A program made the translations under genes and the position numbers. Below, in pieces: positions 9,585 to 52,892 of a stretch of 64,000 nucleotides of DNA. The DNA comes from Aggregatilinea lenta (GTDB lineage Bacteria; Chloroflexota; Anaerolineae; Aggregatilineales; Aggregatilineaceae). The stretch is taken from the NCBI RefSeq assembly GCF_003569045.1, contig NZ_BFCB01000003.1, positions 496,001 through 560,000 of the forward strand, written 5' to 3'. Every line of letters starts with the position of its first letter. Position 1 is the first letter of the stretch. A model generated the notes under the pieces. That model did no database searches and was not told where the DNA came from. It saw only the letters and a list, made by a program, of their open reading frames with translations.

Positions 9585-9585
9585 G

Positions 9586-10128: not shown

Positions 10129-10172
10129 TATGATCTCTCCTTCCGGCACTGTTCCCGCTTGCCGGACTTGCC

Positions 10173-13308: not shown

Positions 13309-13317
13309 GAAAACCCG

Positions 13318-14034: not shown

Positions 14035-14046
14035 TGCACAATCCTT

Positions 14047-15213: not shown

Positions 15214-15216
15214 GCC

Positions 15217-35252: not shown

Positions 35253-35491
35253 GTGTTGCCTCTCCTGATGTCTAATTTTTCTTAAGTATTGTCCGGCGCG
35301 AGCAATAGGGTGTGGAACCGGCTCACTCGATGGCTGCCCAGGGGCCGGGCCGGAGGCCATCTGAGCGTAAGGAACGGGTCTATACGGTCGATCAATTTGG
35401 AACTGCTCTTGCGTGCTCAGTACCTCCCATACTCTACCACGGGGTCAAACAGTGTCAGACCGCTGTTGGTTCCAGCGACCCTGGAATACGT
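35253..35491. promoter_or_regulatory. Region upstream of the Tat-exported binding protein, weak operator candidate
   Basis: A GTCTATAC core at 35378-35385 matches the operator core seen elsewhere in this region, but its flanks (GG on both sides) do not match the TT/AA extension, so it may be chance. No convincing -35/-10 pair was found. Confidence 0.3.
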
Positions 35492-36667
35492 TTATGAAGC
35501 GTACAGGCAGCGCCGTGCCTCGTCGGCAAAGGCGGCGATCAGGTCCGGGTCGGCGTCGAAGAAATGATCGGACGGGCTGAGAATGTAGCCGCCATGCGGC
35601 CCGGCCTGCTCGAAGCAGCGGCGGACCTCGGCGCGGGTTTCTTCGGGCGTACAGCCCTGGAAGTAATGCCCCTGGTCGAACCCGCCGATCATGCACACGC
35701 GGTCCCCGATGCGCTGCTTGGCCTCGGCCAGCCGCATATCGCCGCCCATGTTGGGCGGGGTGAACGTCTCCATCGCGTCGGGACCCATGTCCGCGATGCG
35801 CTCCAGAATGGGCATCATGCCGCCGCAGGTATGGTAGACGATGCGCTGCCCGACGCTGTGAGCCAGTTCGATCAGCTCCTTGTCGTACGGCGCGACGAAC
35901 TCGTCAAACAGCTTGGGCGAGATCACGGTCGAGGACGCCGCACCGCCGCCCAGTTCCAGCAGGTCGTAATGCGCGCCTTTCAGTGAGCGGATGAACGTCT
36001 TTTTGCGCTCCTGAAGGATGCCGATCAGCGCGTGAATCCATTCCGGATCGTCGTACGTCTCGTAGATGATGCGCTCCGTGCCGATCAGTTCCACCGCATC
36101 CTGCCAGCAGCCCGGCTGCCCGTAGATGTCGAAGTAGCAGATGTGGCCGCGCACCAGCCCGCGCTCGCCAAATGACTCCGCGCGGCGGTTGACCGCTTCC
36201 ACGTCGCAGGTCGGGTGCGTGACGAACTCCGCGATCAGGTCGATATCGTTCTTCTCTTTGACCAGCGGCTCGACCACCCAATCGGTGTACTCGTTGCCTT
36301 GCAGCACCATCGACAGCGTGCCCTTGGGCGTGACGAAGTGGTAGCGCGTGGTACGGTATTCCTGGCCGGGGATTGGCTCCGGCTCGATGCGCCAGTTGTC
36401 CGACACGACGCGGTGCGTGTGGTCCAGCGGGTGAATGAACGTCTGGTTAGGGTCGAAGTACTCGCCCTTGCTGGCGTCGGCTTTGTAGGGCACGGTCCAC
36501 AGCAGCGCGTCCAACCCGTAGCGGTCGTAAAACTCCGGGTATGTGATGCCGTCCAGATACTTGTCGAGGAAGTACAACATGACGTGATGCGTCGTCGCCG
36601 GAAGGCGATCCGGCACGCCGCCTGTGAGGGCGGTCAGCATGCGTTGGCGTGACGTCATCTCGGCCAT
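35492..36667 (-). CDS. Uroporphyrinogen decarboxylase/MtaA-like protein 1
   Basis: 391 residues with the UroD TIM-barrel fold. M-T-S-R-Q-R-M-L-T-A-L-x-G-x-x-P-D-R-L-P opens it as in the MtaA/CmuA branch. H-T-C-G-G near residue 277 matches the H-x-C-G zinc motif of corrinoid methyltransferases, which true UroD lacks. M-I-G-G-F-D-Q-G and E-E-T-R-A-E-V-R follow. MtaA-type enzymes move methyl groups between a corrinoid protein and a thiol, but no corrinoid protein is encoded nearby, so the reaction is unknown. It lies 15 bases downstream of the GH38 gene, in one operon. Three more paralogs lie at 42715, 48167 and 49351. Confidence 0.85.
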   Translation of the reverse strand: MAEMTSRQRMLTALTGGVPDRLPATTHHVMLYFLDKYLDGITYPEFYDRYGLDALLWTVPYKADASKGEYFDPNQTFIHPLDHTHRVVSDNWRIEPEPIPGQEYRTTRYHFVTPKGTLSMVLQGNEYTDWVVEPLVKEKNDIDLIAEFVTHPTCDVEAVNRRAESFGERGLVRGHICYFDIYGQPGCWQDAVELIGTERIIYETYDDPEWIHALIGILQERKKTFIRSLKGAHYDLLELGGGAASSTVISPKLFDEFVAPYDKELIELAHSVGQRIVYHTCGGMMPILERIADMGPDAMETFTPPNMGGDMRLAEAKQRIGDRVCMIGGFDQGHYFQGCTPEETRAEVRRCFEQAGPHGGYILSPSDHFFDADPDLIAAFADEARRCLYAS

Positions 36668-36682
36668 CGATGCATTTCCCTC

Positions 36683-39397
36683 CTACGCCGGAACGAATTC
36701 CAGCGTGATCACCTCGCCGCCGCGCGCCTGAACGTGTACGCGGCCTTCCGTCAACTCGAGCATTTCCTGACGCTCTCCGGCCATCGTGGTGCGGTACGCT
36801 TCCGCGACGGGCACACGCACGGTGACAGCGCCCTCGACCGGCTCGCGCGTGATGTTGTAGCAGCGCACGATCAGCGTATCCCGCTCGCTGCGGCACGCGG
36901 CGCTGAGCACCAGCGCGGGCGGATCGATCTGCACGAGGCTGAACGACGCGGGCAGCGACCCGCCGCGCGGCCAGGGGATCGCCGTGACACGCGCCGGGTC
37001 GTCGCGCGTGATGTTCATGTCGTGCAGCTCCAGGCCGGAGTGCGTGTCGGCGCGGCGGCCCAATACCGGCGCGTTGTAGTTCTGCGCGGCCTGGAACACC
37101 GCGCGCCAATCGCCCGCGTGGGGCAGAATCGCGTAATCGTAGGCGTAGGGGCCGAGGCACTGCGCGCCCGGCGTGGGGACCAGCGGCCCGGCGGCGATGC
37201 GCCGCACCCACAGGTCGTCGCGCGAGAGCCAGCCGACCGCGCGCAGCAGCGTCAGCGCGATGGTCCCGTCTTCGGTCACTTCGACCGAGGGCAGGCCCTG
37301 GTTCAGAATCGCCAGCCCGCGCGTGCCATCACTCAGGTCGGTAAAGGTGCGCTGGTGCATCAATGCCGTGGGATCTTCCACCCAGCCGGTCGAATCGGGC
37401 AGCTTGAGGTCGCGCGCGGCGACCATGAACGACTCGTCCACGTGCGCCTGTGCGACGTGCAGCCCGGTCGGGAAGTTCACCGTCAGCTTGTGGTCGCGCG
37501 CCCGGTTATCGATTGTGGTGTGGATGAACACGCCCGGCTGTCCCGCGTAGAGCCGAATCTCGCTGACGATGGGCAGCGGGACCGTTTCCCCGGCGCGGTG
37601 CGTGCGGTCGTCCGTCAGGCCGACGGGCAGATCCAGCGTGCGCTCGATGCGAAACGCGGCGCGGCACGGCCCCGCCTCGATGCGGGTGATCGCCGCGTTC
37701 GCGCCCACGGTCGAAATCGTCTGGCTGTGTTCGGGCAGGGGGCAGAAGCTGTACTCGTCGCCCGTGTCTTCCACGTCGAAGAAGTGATGCAGGCCGGTGT
37801 AGGTTTGGCCGGTCTGCTTGTCCAGCAGATTCAGGCTTCCGTCCGGTTGGATGGCGACGGCCAGGAAGCTGTTTTCCATGCCGCGCTCGTAGCTTTCCAG
37901 GTCCGTACCGGGCGCGGCGGCTCCGGCGGCGGGTTGTGCGAACAGGCTCGTATAGCCCATCGCGGGCAGATCGGCGGGCAGCAGCACGCGGACCACGCGC
38001 TTGCGGTTGGCCTTGAGCACTTCCATCCAGAAGCGCTCCTGGTCTTCGATCACCTGATGCGGCACGATCGCGCCGTCCGGCGTGACGATCCGGAACGCGT
38101 CGGCAACAGGATCGTCGTATTCGAACGCAATCGTGGCTTCGACAACTTCGCGGCGCGGCCAGCCGAGCGGATTGAACAGCAGCACCGGCACGCCATCCTG
38201 CGCGCTCATATCCGCCTGCCGCGCGATCTGGCGCACGCTGTCACGCACCAGGATCTCGGCCACCTGCCGTGACTGGCTGAAGCGGTGGGCCATCTCGTGG
38301 TGTACCTCGTCGATACCGCTGCCGTACATGTCGTCGTGTGGGTGGTTGAGCAGCAGCCATTTCCAGGCGTGCGCGACGAGGCCGGGCGTGCCTTCGGGAA
38401 TGTCCGCGCCCGAAAGCCACGCCAGCGCGGTGAGCGGCTCCATGTAGCGTTCGAGCAGCGTTTCGCCCGCGTGGTTGGCCTGCTTGAGGTGGATGCGCGT
38501 GGAATAAACGCCCTGCAAAATCTCCGAATAGCGGCCCCAACGGAACTCGCCCTCGAACGTGGGTAAATCCGCCCCTGCGTCCCGCACAGCGGCGAGGTGT
38601 TCCGCCAGCGTGCCGTGGTGGATCGTCGTGTCGACCAGGGCCGCGTTCGCGCGGCGGATCACTTCCGGCATGCGCGGCTCGGCCTCGGCGTGGTCGATGC
38701 CGTTCATGAGCAAAATCGTGCCGGTGTTGGTCATCGGCTTCAACTTGTCGATGGCCTTCTCAATCTTCGCCTGCGCCAGATCCCGGTTGAACGACATCTG
38801 CGAGGTGTCGCCCCAGTGCACGCCGTAGCCCAGGTTGGTGACGTTGTGGTAGCCCCACGGCATCAGCACGGCGGTCACCTGCGATCCGTCCGGCGCGCGC
38901 CACTCGAACTCGGTGCCCAGGCGGTCGCCTTCCGTGCCCATGCCGCGCCAGAAGAATGCATTGTCCAGCCCGAAGCCGCGCAGGATCTGCGGAAGCTGCG
39001 CGATATGTCCAAAACCGTCCGGCACGTAGCCGATGGGCATCACGCCGCCGTAGGGTTCGCCCATTTTGTGGCCGAGCGCCAGATTGCGGATCAGCGCTTC
39101 GGGGCTGACCAGAAATTCGTCGGCCAGCACGTACCACGGCCCGACCTGGATGCGGCCCGATTGGCAGTAGGCGTGCAGGCGCGGGGCCTGTTCGGGGCGG
39201 ATTTCGAGATAGTCTTCCAAAACGCTCATCTGGCCGTCAAGCATGAACACCCGGAAGTCGGGATCGTCGTCGAGTGTATTCAGCAGGCGGTCGATGAGGC
39301 GGACGAGGCGGGCGCGGAATTCTTGGAAGGTGACGTACCAGGCGCGGTCCCAATGGGTGTGGCTGACAAGCGTGGCGCGGTAGGAGGGCGGCACCAT
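36683..39397 (-). CDS. GH38 family alpha-mannosidase
   Basis: 904 residues. The N-terminal GH38 catalytic domain shows S-H-T-H-W-D (D17, metal ligand region) and Y-V-P-D-G-F-G-H, where D127 fits the nucleophile of the D-x-F-G-H motif. A three-helix middle domain (about 290-400, with the metal-binding H-D-D-M-Y-G-S-G) and a long beta-sandwich C-terminus follow, the usual GH38 plan at normal length. No signal peptide is visible, so it is likely cytoplasmic and acts on imported oligosaccharides. It is the first gene of a minus-strand operon with the UroD-like gene. A promoter with an operator lies about 150 bases upstream (39543-39582). Confidence 0.94.
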   Translation of the reverse strand: MVPPSYRATLVSHTHWDRAWYVTFQEFRARLVRLIDRLLNTLDDDPDFRVFMLDGQMSVLEDYLEIRPEQAPRLHAYCQSGRIQVGPWYVLADEFLVSPEALIRNLALGHKMGEPYGGVMPIGYVPDGFGHIAQLPQILRGFGLDNAFFWRGMGTEGDRLGTEFEWRAPDGSQVTAVLMPWGYHNVTNLGYGVHWGDTSQMSFNRDLAQAKIEKAIDKLKPMTNTGTILLMNGIDHAEAEPRMPEVIRRANAALVDTTIHHGTLAEHLAAVRDAGADLPTFEGEFRWGRYSEILQGVYSTRIHLKQANHAGETLLERYMEPLTALAWLSGADIPEGTPGLVAHAWKWLLLNHPHDDMYGSGIDEVHHEMAHRFSQSRQVAEILVRDSVRQIARQADMSAQDGVPVLLFNPLGWPRREVVEATIAFEYDDPVADAFRIVTPDGAIVPHQVIEDQERFWMEVLKANRKRVVRVLLPADLPAMGYTSLFAQPAAGAAAPGTDLESYERGMENSFLAVAIQPDGSLNLLDKQTGQTYTGLHHFFDVEDTGDEYSFCPLPEHSQTISTVGANAAITRIEAGPCRAAFRIERTLDLPVGLTDDRTHRAGETVPLPIVSEIRLYAGQPGVFIHTTIDNRARDHKLTVNFPTGLHVAQAHVDESFMVAARDLKLPDSTGWVEDPTALMHQRTFTDLSDGTRGLAILNQGLPSVEVTEDGTIALTLLRAVGWLSRDDLWVRRIAAGPLVPTPGAQCLGPYAYDYAILPHAGDWRAVFQAAQNYNAPVLGRRADTHSGLELHDMNITRDDPARVTAIPWPRGGSLPASFSLVQIDPPALVLSAACRSERDTLIVRCYNITREPVEGAVTVRVPVAEAYRTTMAGERQEMLELTEGRVHVQARGGEVITLEFVPA

Positions 39398-39683: not shown

Positions 39684-39821
39684 TTTCGACAGTAGATGAG
39701 CATTCGGCTCGTATGTACTTAAACGCGCGCTCCTCGCCGCACTCCGGTGCCATCTATTCCGCCCAACCGGGCGAGGCGTGGTCTTTCGTGCCTTTGCCCG
39801 TCCGAAAAAGGATTTTCTTTA

Positions 39822-41792
39822 ATGCTTGAATGGCTCGATTCTTCCGTCCTGACTCTGTTTGGGGCCGCCATCACGCGGTTCTGGGTGGCTGCTGCGCTGC
39901 TGGCCCTCGTCCCGGCGTGGTGGGCGCGGCGTAAAAATTTCAGCGCCGGGATGGGTTATCTGGTCGCAGTGGCCCTGCCGATCGCAGCCAGCGAGATCGT
40001 GCGCACGCTGATCCCCGACGCCAACCAAACGTTTGAGCGCGGCCAGACGCCGAGCGCGTCGTATACGGTCTGGTCCGATGCGGCGTTCCGCGCGGATCTG
40101 GGCCTCGTGTTGCTCTCAATCGTGCTGATCCTCGTCGCAGCGAGGCTAATCGACTGGCTGCGGCAGGACGAGCGCGCGGAATCGCCGCGCCGCTGGCGGC
40201 TGAGCGCAACGGGCAGCGCCGTCGTGCTGGCGATCCCGCTGGTGGCGTGGATCTGGGCGGCGGGCAAGCTGCTGTTCCAGGCGAGCTACGGCGCAATTGC
40301 GCTGCCGCTGGTCGGGTTCGTGGCGCTGGTGGTGATCGCGGGGCTGCTGGCGGTCCGGCTGGACGGCTGGCGGCGCAGCGCCGGTCTGCTGGCGCTGAGC
40401 CTGATCGTCGTGCTGGCGCAGGTGTGGTTCAACAGCACGCGCGGCCCTGCCTCCATGTTCGAGTCGAACGGGTCCGTGCCGTTCTTCCTGCCGCTGATTC
40501 CGGTCGGGCTGGGGATGTTCGCTGCGCCGGGACTGGCCTCCACATGGCGCAAGGGCGACGTACTGGCGCTCGGCTGGCAGTTGGGCGCGCTGGCCTGGAT
40601 GGTAGCAGCGGTCGGCTGGCTGGTGCGCTTCCTGGGCTTCTACGACTTCCAGAACTCGTTTGCGTTCGGCCTGGGCACGGTGCTCAACGCGCCGGTGCGT
40701 GTGCTGTCCGGGCTGAGCGCGATTTATTACGACCGCGTGCCGCGCGAGATCGCGGGTGACGCGAATGCTGCAAACATGGCGACGTGGGAATCGTCGCTGG
40801 TTGTGCTGGTAGGCGTGCTGGCCCTAGTGTGGATCATGTGGCGTACGGCGTCCCTGCCCGCTCGAACGCAGCCGCGCACACTGTCCGCCACGGTCGAGCG
40901 CGCCCGTCACCCGCAGTTTACGCTCAGCCAGCGGCGCTACATCCTGGCCTTCGCGCTAATTCTGCCTGCGCTGGCGCTGCGCACCTTCACCACCTTTTAC
41001 CCGTTCTTGCAGACGGTGGCGCTCAGCGTGCAGAAGTACAACCCCGCCTTTCCCCCGCGCGAATACGTCGCGTTGCGCAACTTCGAGCGGCTCTCGACCG
41101 ACCTCGTCGTGCGCGAAAGCCTGGAATTCACCATCCTGTTCGTGTTCGTCTCGACCTTCTTCCAGGTGGTGCTGGGGCTGGCGATCGCGCACCTGCTCAA
41201 CGCCAACTTCAACCTGCGCGGCTTTGCGCGCACGGTCAGCCTGATCCCGTGGGCGGTGCCGATGGTCGTCGCCGCGATCGGCTTCCGCTGGATGTTCGAC
41301 GACCAGTTCGGCATGATCCCGGACCTGCTGCGCCGCCTGTTCAGTTACCAGGGCACGTGGCTGGTGGACCCGGAGCACGCGCGTATGGCGGTAACGTTCG
41401 TCAATGTGTGGAAGAGCACGCCGTTCGCAGCACTGCTGCTGCTGGCCGGGCTGCAAGGTGTCTCGGAGGATCTGTATGAGGCGGCGAAGGTGGACGGCGC
41501 GAACTGGATCGACGCGCTGCGCTTCATCACCGTGCCGATGCTGATGCCGATCATCGTCACGATCAGTATGTTCCTGCTGGTGTGGCAGCTCGCCGCATTC
41601 GACCTGCCGTTTGCCATGACGGGCGGCGGGCCGGGCTTCTCGACCACGGTGCTCGCACAGAAAATTTACCTGGAAATTAACTCGCTGAATTACAGTTACG
41701 CGGCGGCGGTCAGCATTGCGCTGGTGGTCGTCGTGACGGTGATCGGCGGTTTGGGACTGGTCGCGCTGCGCCGGTCGGAAGTTTCAGCCTAG
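39822..41792 (+). CDS. CUT1 ABC transporter permease (MalF-like) with long N-terminal membrane extension
   Basis: 656 residues from ATG 39822 (AAGGA upstream); an in-frame start at 39747 would add 25 unlikely residues. The last ~290 residues are an ordinary MalF/UgpA-type permease with six helices and the EAA loop E-A-A-K-V-D-G-A-N-W-I-D-A-L. The first ~370 residues add about nine further hydrophobic helices unrelated to the transport core (for example A-V-V-L-A-I-P-L-V-A-W-I-W). MalF of enteric bacteria has a few extra helices, but not so many. The start lies behind a regulated promoter (39640), and the MalG-like gene follows after 15 bases. The importer probably works with the binding protein at 33963; its ATPase must be elsewhere. 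Confidence 0.9.
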   Translation: MLEWLDSSVLTLFGAAITRFWVAAALLALVPAWWARRKNFSAGMGYLVAVALPIAASEIVRTLIPDANQTFERGQTPSASYTVWSDAAFRADLGLVLLSIVLILVAARLIDWLRQDERAESPRRWRLSATGSAVVLAIPLVAWIWAAGKLLFQASYGAIALPLVGFVALVVIAGLLAVRLDGWRRSAGLLALSLIVVLAQVWFNSTRGPASMFESNGSVPFFLPLIPVGLGMFAAPGLASTWRKGDVLALGWQLGALAWMVAAVGWLVRFLGFYDFQNSFAFGLGTVLNAPVRVLSGLSAIYYDRVPREIAGDANAANMATWESSLVVLVGVLALVWIMWRTASLPARTQPRTLSATVERARHPQFTLSQRRYILAFALILPALALRTFTTFYPFLQTVALSVQKYNPAFPPREYVALRNFERLSTDLVVRESLEFTILFVFVSTFFQVVLGLAIAHLLNANFNLRGFARTVSLIPWAVPMVVAAIGFRWMFDDQFGMIPDLLRRLFSYQGTWLVDPEHARMAVTFVNVWKSTPFAALLLLAGLQGVSEDLYEAAKVDGANWIDALRFITVPMLMPIIVTISMFLLVWQLAAFDLPFAMTGGGPGFSTTVLAQKIYLEINSLNYSYAAAVSIALVVVVTVIGGLGLVALRRSEVSA

Positions 41793-41807: not shown

Positions 41808-42701
41808 ATGACGACACATTCACTCAGCGGACGCGCGGAAGAGATGGGGCGCGAACAGCGAGCCTGGCTCGAACGTCACAGCAACGCGATCGCGATTTAC
41901 ATCGCGCTGGCTGTGTTCGTGGTGTTCATCTGCTTCCCGTTTTACTACATCGTGATGTCTTCCATCACGCCGCGCACGGACCTGTTCAACATCCCGCCGT
42001 CCTACTGGCCCAGCAGCCCCACGCTGGAAAACTACCGCAACATGATCGACTCGGTGCCGTTTTTGACCTACCTGCGCAACTCGCTGATCTTCGCGGTGGG
42101 GTCGTCGCTGGTGTCGGTCATCGCCAGCGCGATGGCGGCCTATGCCCTGGCGCGCATCAAGTTCCCCGGCAGCAACGTCGTCTATATGCTGCTGGTGCTG
42201 TCCAGCGCGCTGCCACAGATCGCCGTGCTGGTCCCCATGTTCGAGACGTTCCAGAGCTTTAACCTGATCAACACGCACCAGGGCCTGATCATCCTGATGA
42301 GCAGCCTGATGCTGCCGTTCTCGATCCTGATCCTGGTGTCGTTCATCATGCAGATCCCGGTCGAGATCGAAGAGGCGGCGCTGATCGACGGGGCGAACAT
42401 CGTGCAGGTGCTGACGCGCATGATGGTCCCGCTGCTGCTGCCCGCGCTCTCGACCATGACGGTGATCAACTTCATCATTAGCTGGAACGAGCTGCTCTAT
42501 CCGCTGGTGTTCGCGCAGCGCGACGTGACCAAGACGCTCAGCGTGGCCCTGGTCGAGTTGTCGTCGGACGCCTCGACCTACACGCGCCCGTGGGACATGC
42601 TCAGCGCGCTCAGTGTGTTCATGGTGATCCCGGTGCTGTTCCTGGTGTTGATCGGCCAGCGCATGATCATCGCCGGGCTGTCGCGCGGGGCGGTGAAGTA
42701 G
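41808..42701 (+). CDS. CUT1 ABC transporter permease (MalG-like)
   Basis: 297 residues, six membrane helices. The EAA loop is E-E-A-A-L-I-D-G-A-N-I-V-Q-V-L-T, and N-Y-R-N-M-I-D and F-P-F-Y-Y-I-V-M-S-S are typical of the N-terminal part. AGGAGG lies upstream of the ATG. It pairs with the MalF-like permease 15 bases upstream. Unlike the MalG-type protein at 58877 it has no large insertion. A UroD-like gene follows after 13 bases in the same operon. Confidence 0.95.
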   Translation: MTTHSLSGRAEEMGREQRAWLERHSNAIAIYIALAVFVVFICFPFYYIVMSSITPRTDLFNIPPSYWPSSPTLENYRNMIDSVPFLTYLRNSLIFAVGSSLVSVIASAMAAYALARIKFPGSNVVYMLLVLSSALPQIAVLVPMFETFQSFNLINTHQGLIILMSSLMLPFSILILVSFIMQIPVEIEEAALIDGANIVQVLTRMMVPLLLPALSTMTVINFIISWNELLYPLVFAQRDVTKTLSVALVELSSDASTYTRPWDMLSALSVFMVIPVLFLVLIGQRMIIAGLSRGAVK

Positions 42702-42714
42702 GGGGCGAGACGAC

Positions 42715-43791
42715 GTGACGACCGGCAGCATGACCTCCCGCCAGCGTGTGCTGGCCGCGTTTGCGCACCAGGAGCCAGACCACGTGCCCGCGTGGCTGGG
42801 CGCGTCGCCCGCGTTCCGCGTCAAGGCGATCCATACATTGGATCTGCCCGACGACGAGAGCCTGTCCCGCTTTGTGGGGGACGATTTCCGCCGCGTCTAC
42901 GCGCGCTACGCCGGGCCGGACGAGTACGCGCCGGACGTGAACCTGCCGCCGGGCGTGACGTACCGCTCCGTATTTGGCATTCTGCGCCACGGCTACGAGG
43001 GCGGGCAGCCGCTGTCGCATCCGCTGGCGGAGGCCGAAACCGTGGCCGAGGTGGACGCCTACCCCTGGCCCGATCCGGCCTGGATGGACGTGTCGCAGAT
43101 CCGCACGGACGCGCTGCGTTACGGCGGGCAATATGCCATGCTTGGCGGAGAATGGGCCCCGTTCTGGCACGACGCGATCGACTTGCTGGGCATGGAAAAC
43201 CTGCTGATGAAAATGTTCGACGCGCCGGAGGTGGTCGAAGCGGTGCTGGCGCATACCGCCGCCTTTTATGCCGCCGTCAGCGAGCGTACTTTCGAGGCCG
43301 CTGGAGATGCCATCGACATCTTTTTTATCGGCAACGACTTCGGTTCGCGCAATGGCCCTTTGATCGGCGTGAAGCAGTTCGAGCGGTTTTTGCTGCCGCC
43401 GCTGCGCTCCCTCATCGACCTGGGACACCGGTATAATATGAAAGTGCTGATGCACTGCTGCGGGGGCTTTGCTCCGCTGATCCCGTCGATGATCAACGCC
43501 GGGCTGGATGGGCTTCAGGCGCTCCAGCCGAACTGCCGCGGCATGGACCCGGCGGCGCTCAAGGCCGAGTTTGGCCGCGACCTGCTGCTGATGGGCGCGA
43601 TCAACACGCAGCTTCTGATCGAGGGCACGCCGGAGCAGGCGCGCGCCGAGACACGCCGTATCCTTGAGATCATGATGCCCGGCGGCGGCTACGTGGCATG
43701 CCCCAGCCATGACTACGTGCTGGCGGAGACACCGGTCGAGAACATCACCGCCGTGTATGAAACGATCCGCGAAGGTGGGAGTTATCATTAG
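42715..43791 (+). CDS. Uroporphyrinogen decarboxylase/MtaA-like protein 2
   Basis: 358 residues. GTG 42715 follows a GGGGGCGAG stretch; an ATG at 42730 would give M-T-S-R-Q-R-V-L-A-A-F, which aligns with the start of paralog 1, so either is possible. H-C-C-G-G near residue 246 is the zinc motif, and G-A-I-N-T-Q-L-L-I-E-G-T-P-E-Q is the usual late segment. The N-terminal part (E-P-D-H-V-P-A-W-L-G) fits the MtaA/CmuA branch. It ends the permease operon, and no terminator with a T-run is evident. Confidence 0.85.
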   Translation: MTTGSMTSRQRVLAAFAHQEPDHVPAWLGASPAFRVKAIHTLDLPDDESLSRFVGDDFRRVYARYAGPDEYAPDVNLPPGVTYRSVFGILRHGYEGGQPLSHPLAEAETVAEVDAYPWPDPAWMDVSQIRTDALRYGGQYAMLGGEWAPFWHDAIDLLGMENLLMKMFDAPEVVEAVLAHTAAFYAAVSERTFEAAGDAIDIFFIGNDFGSRNGPLIGVKQFERFLLPPLRSLIDLGHRYNMKVLMHCCGGFAPLIPSMINAGLDGLQALQPNCRGMDPAALKAEFGRDLLLMGAINTQLLIEGTPEQARAETRRILEIMMPGGGYVACPSHDYVLAETPVENITAVYETIREGGSYH

Positions 43792-44110: not shown

Positions 44111-45328
44111 ATGGAGCCGCAAGCGGGTCATATTACGATTGAGCAAAACGTCGAGATTTTGAAACGCTATGCTTACCTGGAGCGCGCGTGCATGCGCACG
44201 CTGGCTGGCTGGCTGCCGGGTGTGCCGGAATGGGAAGCGAAGAACCTGTTCGGGCTGCACATCTGGGAAAGCGCGGATGCCGCCAACGAGCTGCGCGATC
44301 GCCTGAAGGAGTTGCGCAACTACCAGCCGGAGCGGAATCTCAGCCCCACGCTGGAACAGATCTTCAAGGAGTTGGATTACGCGCAGAACACGGCAGAAGT
44401 GATTGCCACGGTCTATCTCGTGGTGAAGAAGGCGCTGCTTGACGCCTATCGCACCCACCCGGACGTGACGTGGTCGGAGTTCGACAATCCCACGGTGAAG
44501 GTGACCGAAAAGCTGATTCCCCAGACCGAGCAGCAGGTGCGCTGGGCCGAGGCGTTCTTCGCGACGATCAAAGCGGACTATTCCGGTTGGGAAGCGTGGC
44601 AGGCAACCATCGCCGGGCTGCTGGAGGCGGACGGCGGCGTCACCGGGACCGGCGCGAAGCACGAGCCGCAGCAGCGCCCAGCGGGCGAGCGTCCGCTGCT
44701 GCTGCCGTGGGCGACGTGCCAGCGCATGCCGGATTGGCCGATCTTCGACCCGGAGGCGGACCTTCAGCCGGACCGCGAGCTTGCGCCGGAAGAACACCGC
44801 ATCTGGCGCTTTAAGCACTACGTCAACGAGATGACCGCCTCGGAGACGCTCGGCTCGATTCTGTGGATGACGCCGGAGATGGAATGGGAGTTCCAGCACA
44901 ACATCTCGCGCCACCTATGGGACGAGATCCGGCACAGCCAGCTTGGCCAGACGCGCGTGCAGCAGTTGGGCCTGAAGGTCGAGGATGTGCCGCAGGTCGT
45001 CCAGATCTACAACGTCATGATGACGCTGCCTGCCGTGGATCAGTACGCGCTGCTGACGACGGTCATCGAGCCGAACGGCATGCCGGAGAAGCGCGCCAAC
45101 CGCGAGCACTGGGAAGAGATGGACGACGAGATCTCGGCGGCGGCGGTCAGCTATGACTGGAGCGACGAAAACTTCCACGTGCGCTGGGGCCAGAAGTGGA
45201 CGCCCGTGCTGCTGGAAACGTACCACTACGACGAATCGCCCGCGCAGATCAAGGAGCGCATGGAAGCCTGGCTGGTGGAGAACACGCCGGTCAAGATGCA
45301 GCAGAAGCACGCGCACGGCGAGTATTAG
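44111..45328 (+). CDS. Ferritin-like diiron protein 1
   Basis: 405 residues from ATG 44111 (AGAGGAGA upstream). I recognise the fold rather than a named family. A complete set of diiron ligands can be proposed: E240 (H-Y-V-N-E), E272/H275 (W-D-E-I-R-H-S), E320 (T-T-V-I-E-P-N-G) and E353/H356 (W-S-D-E-N-F-H-V). This E, E-x-x-H, E, E-x-x-H pattern is that of class I reductase R2, bacterial monooxygenase and AurF-type proteins. An N-terminal helical domain also has E-R-A-C-M-R-T-L. It is paralogous to the next gene and co-directional with a ferredoxin and an isomerase-like gene. An oxygenase or oxidase role is inferred. Confidence 0.8.
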   Translation: MEPQAGHITIEQNVEILKRYAYLERACMRTLAGWLPGVPEWEAKNLFGLHIWESADAANELRDRLKELRNYQPERNLSPTLEQIFKELDYAQNTAEVIATVYLVVKKALLDAYRTHPDVTWSEFDNPTVKVTEKLIPQTEQQVRWAEAFFATIKADYSGWEAWQATIAGLLEADGGVTGTGAKHEPQQRPAGERPLLLPWATCQRMPDWPIFDPEADLQPDRELAPEEHRIWRFKHYVNEMTASETLGSILWMTPEMEWEFQHNISRHLWDEIRHSQLGQTRVQQLGLKVEDVPQVVQIYNVMMTLPAVDQYALLTTVIEPNGMPEKRANREHWEEMDDEISAAAVSYDWSDENFHVRWGQKWTPVLLETYHYDESPAQIKERMEAWLVENTPVKMQQKHAHGEY

Positions 45329-45345
45329 ACCCGCAATTTTGTTTC

Positions 45346-45375
45346 TCCGTAGGGGCGGGCTTGCCCCGCCCGCAG
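45346..45375. repeat. GC-rich palindrome between the two diiron genes
   Basis: GTAGGGGCGGGCTTGCCCCGCCCGC belongs to the same palindrome family as those near 23.1, 28.7 and 63.5 kb. It has no T-run. Confidence 0.6.
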
Positions 45376-45455
45376 TCAGGCGGACGCATACCGGCCCCTG
45401 CGGAGCCATTCCCCAACAACAGAAAAGAGTTACGCTGCGGAGGCACGAAACTATC

Positions 45456-46871
45456 ATGGCAAAAGCGTTACCGACCTCAACCAAAATGAACGAGCAGGCG
45501 CGCGTGGACAGCGCCTCGCAGATTTTGAAGCGTTTTTACGTAGCAGAGCGCACGCTGATGCGCACGCTCGGCGCGTGGTTCGTCGCCACCAGCCAGTGGG
45601 ACCTGAAGCGGCAGCTCAGCGCGGACATGTGGCGGACCGCCCAGCACGCCGACGCCCTGCGCACGCGTGTTCTGGAACTGCGTTACCCACGGCGCGACGT
45701 GGATCGCAAGTACGATACTGATGTGCTGGCGCTGATGGCAGAGGTCGCCAAAGCCGCCGACACGCAGGAGTTCATCGCGGGCGTGTATGATGTCGTGATC
45801 CCGGCGCTGGTGCAGGGCTACGAGGCGTATATTGCACGTACAGACTGGTTGGACGACGCGCCAACCGTGTACCGCGTCCAGCACATCCTGGTCGATAAAC
45901 AGACCGAGATCGCCGCCATGCGGACCCTGCGCGAGCAGGTCTACGGCGCGGGCGAACCGGCACGCGTCGAGCAGTGGCGCGACTACCTGCGCCTGTACCT
46001 GGACAGCATCGGCGGCTTCGACGGCCTGGGCGAGGTGAGCACCCCGCCGGAATCGCACCCCTGCGCCGGACGTCCCGCGTTCGACGTGCCGCGCACCGTC
46101 GAGCGCGATCCACGCTGGCGGCCTGTGCTGTTCCACCTGCCGCACGAGAACAAGTACGACGCGGCGGGCCGTGAGGCCTGGAAGCGCATCGAGGCGCTGG
46201 ATAAGCGTGTAGCGATGCAGGTGTGGTCCGCGATCAGCCACTTCAACGAGATCTGGGCGGCGGAAGTGCCTGCCTCGGTGATGTGGGATCTCGATACTGA
46301 GCCGTGGGCCTTCTACATGGACCTGGCACGCTGGGCATGGGACGAGACGCGCCACAGCACGATGGGCTGGCGCGTGCTGGAAGGTTGGGGCTGGGATGTG
46401 CCGGATCTCGTGCCGTGGGCCAATGCGCTCTACAACTCGACCGGCAGCACGCCCGCGCGGCAGCGGCTGGCGCTGCTGCACTTCTACGAAGAAGGCCTGC
46501 TGCGCTCCGGCACGAAGCAGATCGAGCTGAAGATCCTCGAATCCGCGCAGGATGATAACAGTTCGATGGACATGGACTACGACTGGGCCGACGAAGCGAT
46601 CCACGTCAATTACGGTTATACGTGGCTCAAGCATTTGCTGGGCGACGACAAGGCCGGGCGCGAGGAGCTTCAGCGCCTGACCGATGAGGCGCGCGCCAAA
46701 CACGCCGACTTCGTGCTGGCGCACAAGGACGATCCGGACGTCTCGCTTGCGCCGTACTTCGAGCGGCTGTACCCGGTTGTGCAGGCCATGATGACGGACA
46801 TCCCGGACGACGGGCTGGATATCGTCTGGGCGCCAGTCGCCGCCGACGAAGAGGTCCTCAAGGAGCTGTAA
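45456..46871 (+). CDS. Ferritin-like diiron protein 2
   Basis: 471 residues from ATG 45456 (GGAGG about 13 bases upstream). It aligns with the preceding protein over its length: Q-I-L-K-R-F-Y-V-A-E-R-T-L-M-R-T-L at the N-terminus, then E265 (H-F-N-E), E297/H300 (W-D-E-T-R-H-S), E345 (H-F-Y-E-E) and E380/H383 (A-D-E-A-I-H-V). All six ligands are kept in both paralogs, so neither appears to be a dead subunit. The ferredoxin gene starts 4 bases after the stop. The pair could form a hetero-oligomeric oxygenase. A manganese/iron cofactor is also possible. Confidence 0.8.
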   Translation: MAKALPTSTKMNEQARVDSASQILKRFYVAERTLMRTLGAWFVATSQWDLKRQLSADMWRTAQHADALRTRVLELRYPRRDVDRKYDTDVLALMAEVAKAADTQEFIAGVYDVVIPALVQGYEAYIARTDWLDDAPTVYRVQHILVDKQTEIAAMRTLREQVYGAGEPARVEQWRDYLRLYLDSIGGFDGLGEVSTPPESHPCAGRPAFDVPRTVERDPRWRPVLFHLPHENKYDAAGREAWKRIEALDKRVAMQVWSAISHFNEIWAAEVPASVMWDLDTEPWAFYMDLARWAWDETRHSTMGWRVLEGWGWDVPDLVPWANALYNSTGSTPARQRLALLHFYEEGLLRSGTKQIELKILESAQDDNSSMDMDYDWADEAIHVNYGYTWLKHLLGDDKAGREELQRLTDEARAKHADFVLAHKDDPDVSLAPYFERLYPVVQAMMTDIPDDGLDIVWAPVAADEEVLKEL

Positions 46872-46875
46872 TCGC

Positions 46876-47148
46876 GTGCCACTCGTAACCTTAGTGCAAA
46901 CGGGCGTGAGCTTCGAAGCCGAAGACGACGAGACGATCATGGAAGCGGCGGAACGGGCCGGGATCTTCATGGTCCATAGTTGCCTGAGCGGGACCTGCCG
47001 CTCGTGCATGACGCGCGTGATCAGTGGCATCGTCGAGCACGACCCGGAGTATATCGACGACCTCAACATCGACGACTACGAAGTCGAAGAGGGCTACCGG
47101 CTGCTGTGCAGCGCCTTCGCCCGGACGGACGTCGAACTGGATAAGTAA
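46876..47148 (+). CDS. Plant-type [2Fe-2S] ferredoxin
   Basis: 90 residues starting with GTG, with AGGAG 10 bases upstream. The cluster ligands are arranged C-x4-C-x2-C (H-S-C-L-S-G-T-C-R-S-C) with a distal C in L-L-C-S-A-F, as in plant-type and xylene-monooxygenase-type ferredoxins. The C-terminal stretch is acidic. It lies 4 bases after a diiron gene and 23 bases before a TIM-barrel gene. It most likely supplies electrons to the diiron proteins. No dedicated reductase is encoded nearby. Confidence 0.93.
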   Translation: MPLVTLVQTGVSFEAEDDETIMEAAERAGIFMVHSCLSGTCRSCMTRVISGIVEHDPEYIDDLNIDDYEVEEGYRLLCSAFARTDVELDK

Positions 47149-47171
47149 AGGCACTGCCGGGAGGGCGGCCC

Positions 47172-47963
47172 ATGAAGCTGATGATTTTTCGCGCGTTTTG
47201 GGGCATGACCGGATCGATTGCCGAGCAGATCGACCGCATCGCGGCGGCAGGTTACGACGGCGTCGAAGGCGCGCCGCCGGACCCCGCCGAGATGCCGCGC
47301 GCCGAATTCCTCGATCGTCTGCGCCAGCACAATCTCGCGCTGATCCTGGGCGCGCAGGTGGACACGCGCGACCAGATCGAGCCGGTGTTGATGAAGCTGG
47401 CGGAGTATGGCCCGCTGAAGATCGACCTGCACAGCGGGCGCGACGCACTGTCGCGTGACGACGGCTGCGCCTACTTCGAAGAGGCGCAGCGCGTCGAGCG
47501 CTCGATTGGTATCCCCGTTGGGCACGAAACGCACCGGGGGCGGATGTTCTTTTCGCCCTGGGACACGGCGTTTTATCTGCACACGTTTCAGGACTTGAAG
47601 ATCGTCGCGGACTACAGCCACTGGGTCAATGTCTGCGAGCGGCTGCCGGTCGACCAGACCGATGCGATGGATCTGGCGAACCAGCGCGCGATCCACGTGC
47701 ACGGGCGCGTCGGGTATGAGCAGGGACCGCAGGTGCCCGATCCCGCCGCGCCCGAATATGCCGGTCACCTGGCGTGGCACGAGCAGCAGTGGCAGGCGAT
47801 CAAGGCGCTCCGCCAGCAGGCGGGCGACGAGGTGTTCACCTTCACGCCGGAATACGGCCCGCCGCGCTACCTGCATACGCTACCCTACACCGATGCACCC
47901 GTCGCGGACCTGTGGCAGGTGTGCCTGTGGGCCGCGAATCGCGCCCGTCACACCCTGGTCTGA
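47172..47963 (+). CDS. Xylose-isomerase-like TIM-barrel protein (sugar phosphate isomerase/epimerase family)
   Basis: 263 residues; GGGAGG precedes the ATG. Metal ligands expected for this family are visible in order: Glu in G-H-E-T-H-R, Asp in V-A-D-Y-S-H-W, His in H-V-H-G-R and Glu in F-T-P-E-Y-G-P-P. The family includes isomerases, epimerases and endonuclease IV; the sugar-processing branch fits best. It ends the diiron operon, so its substrate may be what the diiron proteins make or use. A GGGCGGG/CCCGCCC hairpin follows at 48030-48051. Confidence 0.88.
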   Translation: MKLMIFRAFWGMTGSIAEQIDRIAAAGYDGVEGAPPDPAEMPRAEFLDRLRQHNLALILGAQVDTRDQIEPVLMKLAEYGPLKIDLHSGRDALSRDDGCAYFEEAQRVERSIGIPVGHETHRGRMFFSPWDTAFYLHTFQDLKIVADYSHWVNVCERLPVDQTDAMDLANQRAIHVHGRVGYEQGPQVPDPAAPEYAGHLAWHEQQWQAIKALRQQAGDEVFTFTPEYGPPRYLHTLPYTDAPVADLWQVCLWAANRARHTLV

Positions 47964-48166: not shown

Positions 48167-49321
48167 ATGGCAGATGTGATCGAAATTGCGGTTCCGTTTG
48201 ACGAGATCGAAGCGCGCCGCGAGCGCGTGGAAAAAGCGAAGCGGTTCGAAACACCCGACCGCGTCCCCGTTATTCCCGCCGTGGCGCATCGCGTCATGAT
48301 TCCCCGGACCGGCATCTCCTTTGGCGACTACTACCGCGACCCGGAAACGATGCTGCGCGCGCAGATCCTGGGGCAGAAGTGGCTGCTGGAAAATGTCCGC
48401 ACCGATGCGTACAGCATCACGGGCGCGTGGGCGGGGGCCTGGACCGACTTCCAGAACACGTTCGAGGCGGGTAGCCTGGGTGTGGAGATCCACTTCCCCG
48501 ACGACGACATCCCCTGGGTGGGCGAAGGCTGGGTGAAGGCCGAGACCGACCTGAAAACGCTGGAAGCCATCGACTACGTGCACACCGGCATCAACGCGCG
48601 GCAGGTCGAGTTCCGCCGCCGCATGATCGAGGTCGCGGACAAGTATCCGGTGCGCTTCCAAGGCGGCCCCGTGTTTTACCCCGGCGCGAATCCGTGGCTG
48701 ACCAACACCAGCGACGGCCCGTTCGGCGTGACGGGCGACGTGATGGGTCAGGTGGAGGCATTCACTGCCGTCTATGAGCGGCCTGACTTTTTGCGCGAGG
48801 TGATGCGTATCGTCACCGTCAAGATGATCGAGTGGCTCGATTTCTGCGTGCAGGAAATGCAGCTGGAGCATCCCGTCAATTTCTCGTGGACGGATGACCT
48901 GGCTGTGTCGCTCTCGGCGGATAGCTTCCGCGAGTTCGCGCTGCCGTTCAACCAGCAGATGCGCTTCCACTTCGACGGGCGCGCCAGCCTGCACATGTGC
49001 GGGCGCTCCGATCACCTGCTGGAAATCTTCCGCGATGACCTGAAGATCGACGAGTTCCAGGGCTTTGGCTACCAGGTGAATCTCGACCGGGTGGCGGAGG
49101 TGATGGGCGGGCGCGTGGTGCTGATCGGCAATGTGAACCCCATGCTGATCCAGAGCGGCACGCCGGAGGATGTGCGCCAGGCGACGCGTACCGTGATCGA
49201 GAAGCTGAAAGACACGCGCGGGCTGATCATCCAGGACGGCAGCAACATCCCGCCGGATGCGCCGCTGGAAAATGTGAACGCGATGATGGAAGCCGCCGAG
49301 TTGTACGGGCGGTACGCGTAA
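48167..49321 (+). CDS. Uroporphyrinogen decarboxylase/MtaA-like protein 3
   Basis: 384 residues. The zinc-type motif is H-M-C-G-R near residue 276, followed by L-I-G-N-V-N-P-M-L-I-Q-S-G-T-P-E-D-V, the standard late segment of the UroD/MtaA superfamily. E-T-P-D-R-V-P-V-I-P is at the N-terminus. It is the first gene after a regulated promoter (48087-48132) and is followed 29 bases later by paralog 4 and then the GH31 gene. The reaction is unknown; see the notes on the four paralogs. Confidence 0.86.
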   Translation: MADVIEIAVPFDEIEARRERVEKAKRFETPDRVPVIPAVAHRVMIPRTGISFGDYYRDPETMLRAQILGQKWLLENVRTDAYSITGAWAGAWTDFQNTFEAGSLGVEIHFPDDDIPWVGEGWVKAETDLKTLEAIDYVHTGINARQVEFRRRMIEVADKYPVRFQGGPVFYPGANPWLTNTSDGPFGVTGDVMGQVEAFTAVYERPDFLREVMRIVTVKMIEWLDFCVQEMQLEHPVNFSWTDDLAVSLSADSFREFALPFNQQMRFHFDGRASLHMCGRSDHLLEIFRDDLKIDEFQGFGYQVNLDRVAEVMGGRVVLIGNVNPMLIQSGTPEDVRQATRTVIEKLKDTRGLIIQDGSNIPPDAPLENVNAMMEAAELYGRYA

Positions 49322-49350: not shown

Positions 49351-50508
49351 ATGGACGATTCAATGATCATGTTGGACGACGCGACGCTGGACCGCATCAA
49401 CCGCAACAAAGCGTTTATGACCCGCGTGTGGAACCTCGAAAACGACGAGCGCCCCGGCTTCATCATCGGCTATGTGGGGCCGCGCATGAAGGGCGGCACG
49501 CCCGTGCCCAGCGCGATTTTCTCGACCGACGGGCCGGACTCCGTGCGCGACCGCCTGCTGGACCCGGAAAAATTCTTGCAGGCGCAGCTCACCGAGATGC
49601 GCGCGCAGCTCCAGTTCAAAGGCGACTACGTGCCCTCCCTGTGCCCGGCGATCGGCGTGGTGGGCATTCCGTCCGCGTTCGGGGGCGAGGTGATCTGGTG
49701 GGAGCGCGATCTGCCCGCCGTGCGCCCTTCCATCGGCGACGATCCGATGCAGGTCTACGACCTCCCCAAGCCCTCGATCCGTGACGGCGAGCTGGGTCGT
49801 ATCCTCGACTACACGCGTTACTTCGCGGAACAGACCGGCGGCCAGATCCCGATCCGCCTGGGCGATTTTCAGGGGCCGCTGGACGCCGCCGCGCTGATCT
49901 TTGGGCACAACAATTTTCTGATGGCGATGCTGACCAATCCCGACGAGGTGCATCACCTCATGGGCATGGTCACGGACCTGATGATCGAGGTCATCCACGC
50001 GCAGCGCGACGCGGCGCACGCGTACGGCGCGGAGTTCGTACCGAGCCTGCACCAGCCCTGGCTGCCGGATGGCCTCGCGGTGAGCGTTTCGAATGACGAA
50101 TGCGTGATGATGTCCACTGAGATGCACGCGGAATTCCACGTGCCCTACCTGAACCGGCTGTCCGAGGAATTCGGCGGCATCTATCACCACTCGTGCGGCA
50201 AATGGTCGCACCAGTTCCCCAGCCTGGAAGCGATCCACAACCTGCGCGGGCTGGAGTTCGGTGCGAGCGAGGCGACCTACGAGCCGGTGCTGGAACACTT
50301 TAACGGCAAGGTCTTCACGTCCTGCCGGATCGGGTTGCAGCGCGACATGAAGTTCGACGGCATGGCCGACTTCGTGCGCAAGGTGATGGGCAAAGCCAAA
50401 ACCACGCGCGGCTTCTTCATCAATGTGGACGTGACCAACGGCATCGTGGGCGACGACTGGCCCGAAACGGACCTGGACGAGATTTACAACCTCATCGGAG
50501 CGAATTGA
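49351..50508 (+). CDS. Uroporphyrinogen decarboxylase/MtaA-like protein 4 (divergent)
   Basis: 385 residues. The sequence is more distant than the other three but keeps the fold. H-H-S-C-G-K near residue 279 supplies the H-x-C-G motif, and L-P-D-G-L-A-V-S-V-S-N-D-E-C precedes it as in the superfamily. G-D-F-Q-G-P-L-D-A-A is a substrate-pocket-like loop. An ATG at 49363 is an alternative start with AGGA at better spacing. The stop lies 2 bases before the GH31 start. It may bind a different partner from its paralogs. Confidence 0.75.
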   Translation: MDDSMIMLDDATLDRINRNKAFMTRVWNLENDERPGFIIGYVGPRMKGGTPVPSAIFSTDGPDSVRDRLLDPEKFLQAQLTEMRAQLQFKGDYVPSLCPAIGVVGIPSAFGGEVIWWERDLPAVRPSIGDDPMQVYDLPKPSIRDGELGRILDYTRYFAEQTGGQIPIRLGDFQGPLDAAALIFGHNNFLMAMLTNPDEVHHLMGMVTDLMIEVIHAQRDAAHAYGAEFVPSLHQPWLPDGLAVSVSNDECVMMSTEMHAEFHVPYLNRLSEEFGGIYHHSCGKWSHQFPSLEAIHNLRGLEFGASEATYEPVLEHFNGKVFTSCRIGLQRDMKFDGMADFVRKVMGKAKTTRGFFINVDVTNGIVGDDWPETDLDEIYNLIGAN

Positions 50509-50510
50509 CG

Positions 50511-52892
50511 ATGGCGAACGTGCTGCCTCATAACGCCCCGCAGGGCTTTGACTGGGTGACCCGGCTCGAAAGTTGGGGTCTGGATGGTGGCGTGCTGCGG
50601 CTGGCGGTCGGCACGGCAGCGGGTGCGCAGGCGGTGCTGACGTTCCAGGCGCTGACGCCTGCGATCTGGCATTTCACATTCGTCCCACCGGACACCCAGG
50701 CCGATCCCCCTACGCCCATCATGATCATGGACAAGACGCCGGGCGTGGCCTTATCCGTCGAGCAGACAGAGGCAGGTATCGTCGTGCGAGGCCCGGCGTT
50801 GTCGCTCGTCATCGACCGCGATCCGTGGATGCTGCGCTGGCTGGACGCGGACGGGCGCGATATCGCGCGTGAAAATCCATCCGATATCGACGGACTGGGC
50901 CGCCCCTTCGTGCTGCCGCTGGGCTATGTGCGCGGCGCGGATGGCGTGACGACCGTGACCGAGTCGCTGCACCTGCGGCCCGACGAGCACCTGTTCGGCC
51001 TGGGCGAAAAGTTCACGCCGCTGGACAAGGTGCAGCAGCGCATCGTTACCTGGACGCAGGACGCGTTCGGCTCCACCAGCGAGCGCTCGCACAAGAATAT
51101 CCCGTTCCTGATCAGCACGCGCGGCTACGGCCTGCTGCTCGATACCGGCGCGCGCGTGGCGTGGGATCTGGGCAACGTCTCGTGCCAGTCCTTCACCATG
51201 ACGCTGGACGTGCCCACGCTGGATGGATACCTGATCTACGGCCCGACGCCCGCCGAGATTCTGGACCGTTACACCGCCCTGACCGGGCGCGCGCCGCTGC
51301 CGCCCAAGTGGTCGTTCGGGTTGTGGATGTCGGGCGCGGGCACGTACCGCGACCGCGCGGCGATTGAGGCGCTGGTCGCCGGGCTGGACGAGCACGATAT
51401 CCCGGCGGACGTGATCCACGTCGATACGTGGTGGCTGCGCTGGCGGCAGTACTGCGATTTTCGCTGGGACGAAGACGCGTTCCCAGACGTCAAAGGCTTT
51501 ACCGACGCGCTGCACGCGCAGGGTTATCACCTGACGGTGTGGGAGCATCCGTATATCTCGGTGGAGAGCGACCTGTTCGAGGTCGGGGAGCGCGAGGGTT
51601 ACTTCCTCACACGGCCTGACGGCTCGGTATACGTGATCGACTACGGGCTGTCGCTGGCTCCCAGGCCAGACGGCACCGTGCGCGTAGCCACGCCCGAAAC
51701 GTCATGGAACGCGCCCGTGGCGATCATCGACATGACCAACCCGGACGCGGTGCGCTGGTTCCAGGACCTGCACCGGCCCGCGATTGCCAGCGGCATCGAC
51801 GCGTTCAAAACTGACTTTGGCGAGGATATCCCCGAAGACGCGGTGTTCTTCAACGGACAGACGGGCCGCACCATGCACAACCTCTACCCGCTGCTGTATA
51901 ACCAGGCGGTGACCGAAGTGACGCGCCAGGAGCGGGGCTACGACCTCGTGTGGGCGCGGTCGGGCACGGCGGGCAGCCAACGCTTCCCGGTGTGCTGGTC
52001 CGGCGACCCGGCGGCGGATTTCGACAGTCTGGCGTGTACGGTGCGCGGCGGCCTGTCGATCGGCCTGTCCGGCGTGCCGTTCTGGAGCCACGACATCGGC
52101 GGTTACCGGGGTATGCCGTCGCCGCGCCTGTTCGTGCGCTGGGCGCAGTTCGGCTTGATGTGCTCGCACAGCCGCATGCACGGCGACAGCCCGCGCGAGC
52201 CGTGGTATTTTGGACCGGAAGCGACGGACATCGTGCGGCGCTACGTGAAATTGCGCTACGCGCTGTTTCCCTACCTGTACAGCCTCGCGCACGAGGCGCA
52301 CCGCACCGGCCTGCCGGTGATTCGCGCGATGCCGCTGGCCTTCCCCGGCGATCCGAACGCAGTCGGCAAAGACCTGCAATACATGCTCGGCCCGTCGCTG
52401 CTGGTCGCGCCCGTGGTGGACGACTCTGACGCGCGGGCCGTTTATCTGCCCGCCGGAACGTGGATCGACTACTGGACGGGGAAGCCGTTCGACGGCCCGG
52501 CCAACATCACGGTTGACGCGCCGCTGGATACCCTGCCGCTGTTCGTTCGGGGTGGGGCGGTGATCCCGATGATGGGTCCGGTCACACGTATCCCCGAAGG
52601 CCGGATCGACCCGCTGATTGTGGTGGTCTATCCGCACGGCAGCAGTGCGTACATGCTGCTCGAAGACGACGGCGAAACGGCGCTGCGCTATGAGGAACAC
52701 GACGGCGCACGCATTTTAACCCTGCGCACCGAACAGCCGCGTGCGGTGATCGTGCGGCCCGTAGGCTTTGGACCACTGCGTGAGGTTCGTGCGGTGGACA
52801 ACGGCCAGCCGGTCGAGATCGAGCTGCACCTGCACCAGGGCGGGATCGAGTTCCGGCTGGAGGGCGTGCGAGAGGCGGAGATCCGGCTGTAG
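50511..52892 (+). CDS. GH31 family alpha-glycosidase, alpha-xylosidase-like
   Basis: 793 residues from ATG 50511, with GGAG 10 bases upstream; TTG 50505 in the same frame is less likely. An N-terminal beta-sandwich is followed by the (beta/alpha)8 barrel. The nucleophile Asp lies in A-F-K-T-D-F-G-E near residue 434, and the acid/base Asp in W-S-G-D-P-A-A-D near 498. K-T-D-F-G-E and C-D-F-R-W-D resemble the YicI alpha-xylosidase branch rather than sulfoquinovosidases. No signal peptide is seen, so it is probably cytoplasmic. It is coupled to the UroD-like gene upstream and converges with the regulator gene. Confidence 0.92.
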   Translation: MANVLPHNAPQGFDWVTRLESWGLDGGVLRLAVGTAAGAQAVLTFQALTPAIWHFTFVPPDTQADPPTPIMIMDKTPGVALSVEQTEAGIVVRGPALSLVIDRDPWMLRWLDADGRDIARENPSDIDGLGRPFVLPLGYVRGADGVTTVTESLHLRPDEHLFGLGEKFTPLDKVQQRIVTWTQDAFGSTSERSHKNIPFLISTRGYGLLLDTGARVAWDLGNVSCQSFTMTLDVPTLDGYLIYGPTPAEILDRYTALTGRAPLPPKWSFGLWMSGAGTYRDRAAIEALVAGLDEHDIPADVIHVDTWWLRWRQYCDFRWDEDAFPDVKGFTDALHAQGYHLTVWEHPYISVESDLFEVGEREGYFLTRPDGSVYVIDYGLSLAPRPDGTVRVATPETSWNAPVAIIDMTNPDAVRWFQDLHRPAIASGIDAFKTDFGEDIPEDAVFFNGQTGRTMHNLYPLLYNQAVTEVTRQERGYDLVWARSGTAGSQRFPVCWSGDPAADFDSLACTVRGGLSIGLSGVPFWSHDIGGYRGMPSPRLFVRWAQFGLMCSHSRMHGDSPREPWYFGPEATDIVRRYVKLRYALFPYLYSLAHEAHRTGLPVIRAMPLAFPGDPNAVGKDLQYMLGPSLLVAPVVDDSDARAVYLPAGTWIDYWTGKPFDGPANITVDAPLDTLPLFVRGGAVIPMMGPVTRIPEGRIDPLIVVVYPHGSSAYMLLEDDGETALRYEEHDGARILTLRTEQPRAVIVRPVGFGPLREVRAVDNGQPVEIELHLHQGGIEFRLEGVREAEIRL

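Follow-up and report, generated by a model that had tools for sequence, protein, structure and literature searches.

Tandem ferritin-like proteins with putative diiron sites and a linked ferredoxin in a glycan-use region of Aggregatilinea lenta

Closest described systems and the locus

Ferritin-like diiron enzymes carry out some of the hardest oxidations known. Cyanobacterial aldehyde-deformylating oxygenase (ADO) is a diiron protein that works with a plant-type [2Fe-2S] ferredoxin, and the hydroxylases of multicomponent monooxygenases combine diiron and metal-free paralogous bundles and take their electrons from a [2Fe-2S] protein; in toluene 4-monooxygenase, the beta chain is metal-free. A small plant-type ferredoxin also serves the ferritin-like diiron protein of the NrdB-YfaE system, YfaE being the ferredoxin of diferric-tyrosyl radical maintenance according to a title in the reference list of PMC8463856. 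For glycan use, a P450/ferredoxin system acting on 6-O-methyl-galactose has been described (PMC10033563), and in the literature we found no described role of a ferritin-like diiron enzyme in sugar catabolism. We analyzed a window of 64,000 nucleotides from the 6.2 Mb genome of the Chloroflexota bacterium A. lenta, in which open reading frames for two ferritin-like proteins (dA and dB), a ferredoxin (Fd) and a TIM-barrel protein (TIM) stand consecutively on the plus strand, among the following features:

33963-35360, minus strand: solute-binding protein of the sugar importer (SBP_bac_1, E 3e-34), grouped in relatives with dA and the permeases
36683-39397, minus strand: GH38 glycosidase (GH38N, E 2.7e-40), nearest to mannosylglycerate hydrolase, with model NF007331 far below its cut-off
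39747-41792 and 41808-42701, plus strand: two permeases of the ABC sugar importer, conserved 5' of dA in many relatives
42715-43791, plus strand: URO1, URO-D family protein (PF01208, E 3e-29) with an HxC motif
44111-45328, plus strand: dA, tandem ferritin-like protein of 405 aa
45329-45455, plus strand: dA/dB spacer of 127 bases with a strong hairpin (12-bp stem)
45456-46871, plus strand: dB, second tandem ferritin-like protein, 471 aa
46876-47148, plus strand: Fd, plant-type [2Fe-2S] ferredoxin of 90 aa with a GTG start
47172-47963, plus strand: TIM, xylose-isomerase-like TIM-barrel protein of 263 aa (AP_endonuc_2-related)
48167-49321, plus strand: URO2, URO-D family protein (PF01208, E 4.7e-33) with an HxC motif, the commonest URO-D neighbour of dA
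49351-50508, plus strand: URO3, URO-D family protein (PF01208, E 5e-17) with an HxC motif
50505-52892, plus strand: GH31 glycosidase (GH31, E 6e-90), nearest to an alpha-xylosidase model (PRK10658, 593.6 bits against a cut-off of 606)

Elsewhere in the window, an archaellum-like gene set was observed in this bacterium at 7890-16816 on the minus strand, comprising a type II/IV secretion ATPase, a T2SSF-like membrane protein and a KaiC-like ATPase, together with a weak archaeal-flagellin match and a GAF/FHA histidine kinase.

AlphaFold2 models of dA (pLDDT 94.5, pTM 0.93) and dB (pLDDT 91.9, pTM 0.91) each consisted of two four-helix bundles in tandem. ADO was the top PDB structural match of the N-terminal bundle (Z 17.3 and 17.2; rmsd 2.5 over 169 residues at Z 17.3) and shares the ferritin-like four-helix bundle; however, this best match fell on the bundle without metal ligands, at 10-14% identity and with no acyl-aldehyde context around dA and dB, and no Pfam or NCBIfam ADO model matched at E 1. 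Toluene 4-monooxygenase likewise combines diiron and metal-free bundles, and its beta chain matched the N-terminal bundle of dB (Z 17.1, rmsd 3.0 over 181), but dA and dB each join the two bundles in a single chain. In the annotated clusters, we recognised neither an effector nor a reductase component of multicomponent monooxygenases, and the sequence matches to that group comprised one weak Phenol_Hydrox match in one relative; dA and dB fall outside it. The pairing of dB with Fd resembles NrdB-YfaE, but Fd scored 28.5 bits against the YfaE model (cut-off 75), dB is not a ribonucleotide reductase subunit, and the context is catabolic. The P450 system of PMC10033563 has in common a ferredoxin-dependent oxygenase in a glycan-use locus, whereas the P450 is a haem enzyme with its own reductase, a different metal centre and no sequence relation to dA or dB. 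By analogy, the multicomponent hydroxylases, ADO and NrdB-YfaE would be work-alikes of dA and dB, which are members of none of them.

Fold, metal ligands and family of dA and dB

The N-terminal bundle of dA (residues ~10-156) has no metal site, and the C-terminal bundle (~226-370) carries the putative diiron ligands. The C-terminal helices spanned residues 226-253 (with a kink at 239-240), 259-285, 308-336 and 340-370, and E240, E272/H275, E320 and E353/H356 lay at 45-63% of the length of these four helices, predicted mid-helix positions that are as expected of a diiron layer; the ligand set of dB is E265, E297/H300, E345 and E380/H383. A sequence-only reading of this DNA had proposed that both paralogs keep a full E, E-x-x-H, E, E-x-x-H set, and had made its proposal depend on these residues clustering in a four-helix bundle. 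The first point was borne out and the second supported: over 43 diverse members, the six positions were kept in 43 (E), 42 (E), 43 (H), 42 (E), 43 (E) and 43 (H), and structure prediction placed all six ligands mid-helix on one four-helix bundle. Judged from the alignment, such conservation in 42-43 of 43 relatives is far above chance, and D271, R274, D352 and R64 (dA numbering) were likewise invariant. As modelled, dA and dB show the fold and ligand pattern of ferritin-like diiron carboxylate proteins, namely a four-helix bundle with E, ExxH, E and ExxH on its four helices. The earlier reading needs correction in that the set occurs once per protein, in the C-terminal half only.

Profile-profile comparison (hhalign) aligned the N- and C-terminal halves colinearly over 126 columns (P 0.003). 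In dA, the alignment paired E24 with E240 (obtained by extending the register three columns), S54 with E272, A57 with H275, K106 with E320, T139 with E353 and Q142 with H356; with S54, A57, K106, T139 and Q142 at ligand columns, the full site is thus confined to the C-terminal copy. A lysine stood opposite the third-helix glutamate in the N bundle of 29/43 members, and remnants of the form DxxH or ExxH persisted in this bundle of some relatives. The N bundle, a ferritin-like copy, has an eroded metal site; an active site in this bundle of dA or dB was ruled out by the half alignment together with the conservation. The structural matches of the N bundle support the fold and not the function, as helical bundles score high easily. 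The PDB structure match lists were filled mostly by the N bundle, and the absence of a family from them says nothing on the C bundle; heme-oxygenase-like dimetal oxidases (CADD, TenA) appeared among the lower rows, against the N bundle only. By sequence, no solved structure was found for dA, and the family profile gave only weak ADO or bacterioferritin matches to solved structures, with ADO chains at E 0.016 or worse.

The two proteins shared 28% identity over 385 columns (BLASTP, E 8e-36), which confirmed the suggestion that they are paralogous. In the tree of the family, they fell in separate well-supported clades; thus, dA and dB were brought together and not recently duplicated, and a recent tandem duplication was ruled out by the age and separation of these clades. 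Their C-terminal halves matched PF04305 (DUF455) at 37.7 bits (dA, E 2.1e-9) and 42.2 bits (dB, E 9e-11), both above the gathering score of 34.3 and with the ligands inside the matched stretch, and PF04305 was found in 40/43 family members at E 0.01. The match covered profile positions ~57-209 of 247 (~150 positions) and not the full domain, indicating a diverged DUF455 branch and not a canonical member. Further differences from DUF455 are the metal-free bundle in front, the dedicated ferredoxin of dB and the glycan-cluster context. Thus, the earlier statement that the system has no known family name does not stand as worded, since the family is DUF455-related above the gathering cut-off, but its sense holds in that no function was found: papers naming DUF455 or COG2833 gave none (one DUF455 match was really DUF4559), no NCBIfam model fits dA or dB, and we found no family member with a known reaction.

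Two separable modules among sugar genes

The small plant-type ferredoxin Fd is assigned from its sequence, with a Fer2 match of 54.6 bits (cut-off 21, E 1.1e-14) and the CX4CX2C motif plus a fourth cysteine, all four cysteines being kept in 8/8 Fd sequences compared. TIM matched AP_endonuc_2 at E 6.7e-5, below the cut-off, and its invariant columns E119, D147, H150, H175, H177 and E227 are possible metal ligands.

Fd lay directly 3' of dB in 16/16 testable genomes (15 relatives and the window), within a few bases or with a slight overlap where the longest open reading frame was taken; one further relative was cut by a contig end. TIM followed Fd in 11/16 genomes (10/15 relatives and the window), and one relative has a small cupin protein instead of TIM behind the ferredoxin (L068:12918-13277). 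A GH31 glycosidase came next after dB-Fd(-TIM) in several relatives, two URO-D genes intervening in the window, and dB-Fd-TIM-GH31 was often divergent from a second ABC importer. In the loci examined, Fd accompanied the dB clade only. In many relatives, dA was the last gene of an ABC importer operon and had GH38, URO-D genes and a GntR regulator as neighbours; in a 61-genome sample, a GH38 orthologue was present in 10/10 dA genomes and in 14 genomes overall (p 1e-8, a value that ignores shared ancestry).

Of all 154 genomes of the order, 17 had dB orthologues, 23 had dA orthologues and 15 had both; dA was present in 15/17 genomes with dB versus 8/137 without it (p 2e-13, again ignoring shared ancestry). 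Eight genomes had dA without dB, and two, one of them 98% complete, had dB-Fd without dA. In two genomes, the dA and dB modules, joined in the window, were ~10-16 kb apart in different operons of one cluster. These results demonstrated that dA and dB-Fd are separable modules. Of the single four-gene operon proposed from sequence, the consecutive order of the four open reading frames stood, but the strict unit did not: dA is often without dB and tracks the GH38/ABC-importer/URO-D operon. The co-occurrence search proposed with it showed dB and Fd linked in every testable genome, with dA associated with dB but separable from it. Nor does the ferredoxin overlap the pair in spacing, as had been stated; Fd begins 4 bases 3' of the dB end, and 127 bases separate dA from dB. 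The hairpin of this spacer (MFE -53.6 kcal/mol, z -3.4) is consistent with a join of two modules, and perhaps represents a mobile or REP-like small element. We saw no ferredoxin reductase in the clusters and no dedicated electron donor for dA.

When 85 thousand species genomes were scanned, 320 coding stretches proved related to dA; the 80 best of them came from Chloroflexota, Paenibacillus and Armatimonadota. Neighbours of distant relatives included ABC importers, GH4, alpha-L-fucosidase, sulfatase, Gfo/Idh/MocA proteins, SDR, aldo/keto reductases, class III aminotransferase, aldolases, FAD oxidoreductases and PhyH dioxygenases. Caldilineaceae relatives (L100, L109, L119 and similar) had a conserved cluster with a BNR-repeat protein, class III aminotransferase, amidohydrolase, aldo/keto reductase, AAC(3)-like acetyltransferase and PhyH, which suggests a specific unusual sugar. 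The assignment of the locus to a glycan-use region was upheld, as the importers and glycosidases around dA and dB are conserved in relatives. Four URO-D genes with HxC motifs (35492-36667 and URO1 to URO3) share this glycan region, in which no corrinoid protein is encoded. The same genome encodes a third diiron paralogue ~215 kb away (C3:324297-325412); a URO-D gene is close to this third paralogue as well (L026:7156-10467), so that URO-D and the diiron family recur together.

Proposed role and competing explanations

We proposed that dA and dB are probably diiron oxidases or oxygenases acting on imported sugars, dB being reduced by its own Fd. An ancestral ferritin-like (DUF455-type) bundle would have been duplicated within one chain, after which the N copy would have lost its metal site and turned structural and the C copy would have kept a carboxylate-bridged diiron site of four Glu and two His, presumably occupied by iron. 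Once reduced, this site would bind O2 and hydroxylate or dehydrogenate a sugar or glycoside that the neighbouring ABC importers may supply, before or after cleavage by GH38 or GH31. Fd, encoded right behind dB, would donate electrons to it after being reduced by a reductase whose gene lies elsewhere; dA would be fed by another donor, because it is usually without Fd. In the dB branch, TIM would probably act next, converting the oxidised sugar as an isomerase, epimerase or eliminase. The source genome encodes haem-copper oxidase subunit I (COX1), so that the organism can probably use O2; across the phylum, the association of the diiron family with COX1 was not significant (13/14 vs 240/287, p 0.7).

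A special case of this proposal, unlikely in its specific form, is that the diiron oxidase would produce a keto-glycoside and TIM would cleave or rearrange it. It would explain the placement of TIM behind Fd in most of the genomes and its invariant Glu, Asp and His residues, and there is a precedent, as a putative sugar phosphate isomerase of TIM-barrel fold is a Mn-dependent beta-eliminase on 3-keto-glycosides (PMC10628242). However, a sequence search of the PDB with TIM gave nothing below E 0.3. In the known routes, to our knowledge, the keto group comes from a dehydrogenase or a flavin oxidase and not from a diiron protein.

Oxidative O-demethylation, in which the diiron protein would hydroxylate the methoxy group of a methylated sugar and free formaldehyde, was the hypothesis raised from the sequence on account of MtaA-like genes nearby. 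A ferredoxin-fed oxygenase beside glycosidases does resemble the P450 system of PMC10033563, and the neighbourhood conserves genes related to URO-D/MtaA that have HxC motifs. Nevertheless, the URO-D neighbours scored 66.9, 58.5 and 29.3 bits against TIGR01463 (cut-off 235.4), placing them far below the MtaA/CmuA cut-offs with the HxC kept, and the label MtaA-like is not supported. No corrinoid partner was present in the window, the four B12-binding_2 genes of the genome all lying elsewhere; we recognised no gene for handling or oxidising formaldehyde in the neighbourhoods annotated, where most neighbours were named by similarity to window genes or a few Pfam scans; and GH38 and GH31 are uninformative on methyl groups. 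The hypothesis thus had no specific support, and we consider it improbable; the keto-sugar route with TIM, itself tentative, appears an equally good or better explanation.

Like the alpha and beta hydroxylase subunits of bacterial multicomponent monooxygenases, dA and dB might instead form one heteromeric oxygenase, as they co-occur, are often adjacent, and each have one metal and one metal-free bundle, which alpha and beta subunits have between them. Any such dA-dB complex is rather improbable, given the genomes with either module alone, the two in which the pair is split between operons, and the presence of both bundle types in each chain already. Least probable is a ferritin-like iron store or peroxide/O2 scavenger of rubrerythrin or bacterioferritin type, with Fd serving detoxification and an accidental glycan context, for which the bacterioferritin-type E, ExxH, E, ExxH pattern and the bacterioferritins among the weak profile and fold matches speak, but against which stand the sugar-catabolic neighbours kept within several lineages, a fused double bundle that differs from 24-mer shells, and the tracking of GH38 by dA.

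Taken together, the pairing of dB with Fd beside sugar genes suggests a class of oxidative enzymes for glycan breakdown that has not been studied. More tentatively, dA and dB may represent an O2-dependent diiron family of carbohydrate catabolism in Chloroflexota, Paenibacillus and Armatimonadota, in which catalytic and metal-free ferritin bundles are fused. If true, this would give the DUF455 branch its first function and would mean that glycosides are processed oxidatively by a non-haem diiron enzyme served by a ferredoxin of its own. If right, the fused metal-free bundle would be a natural case of a duplicated metal site turning structural, and the conserved dB-ferredoxin pair with its GH31 and TIM partners would provide a ready testable system.
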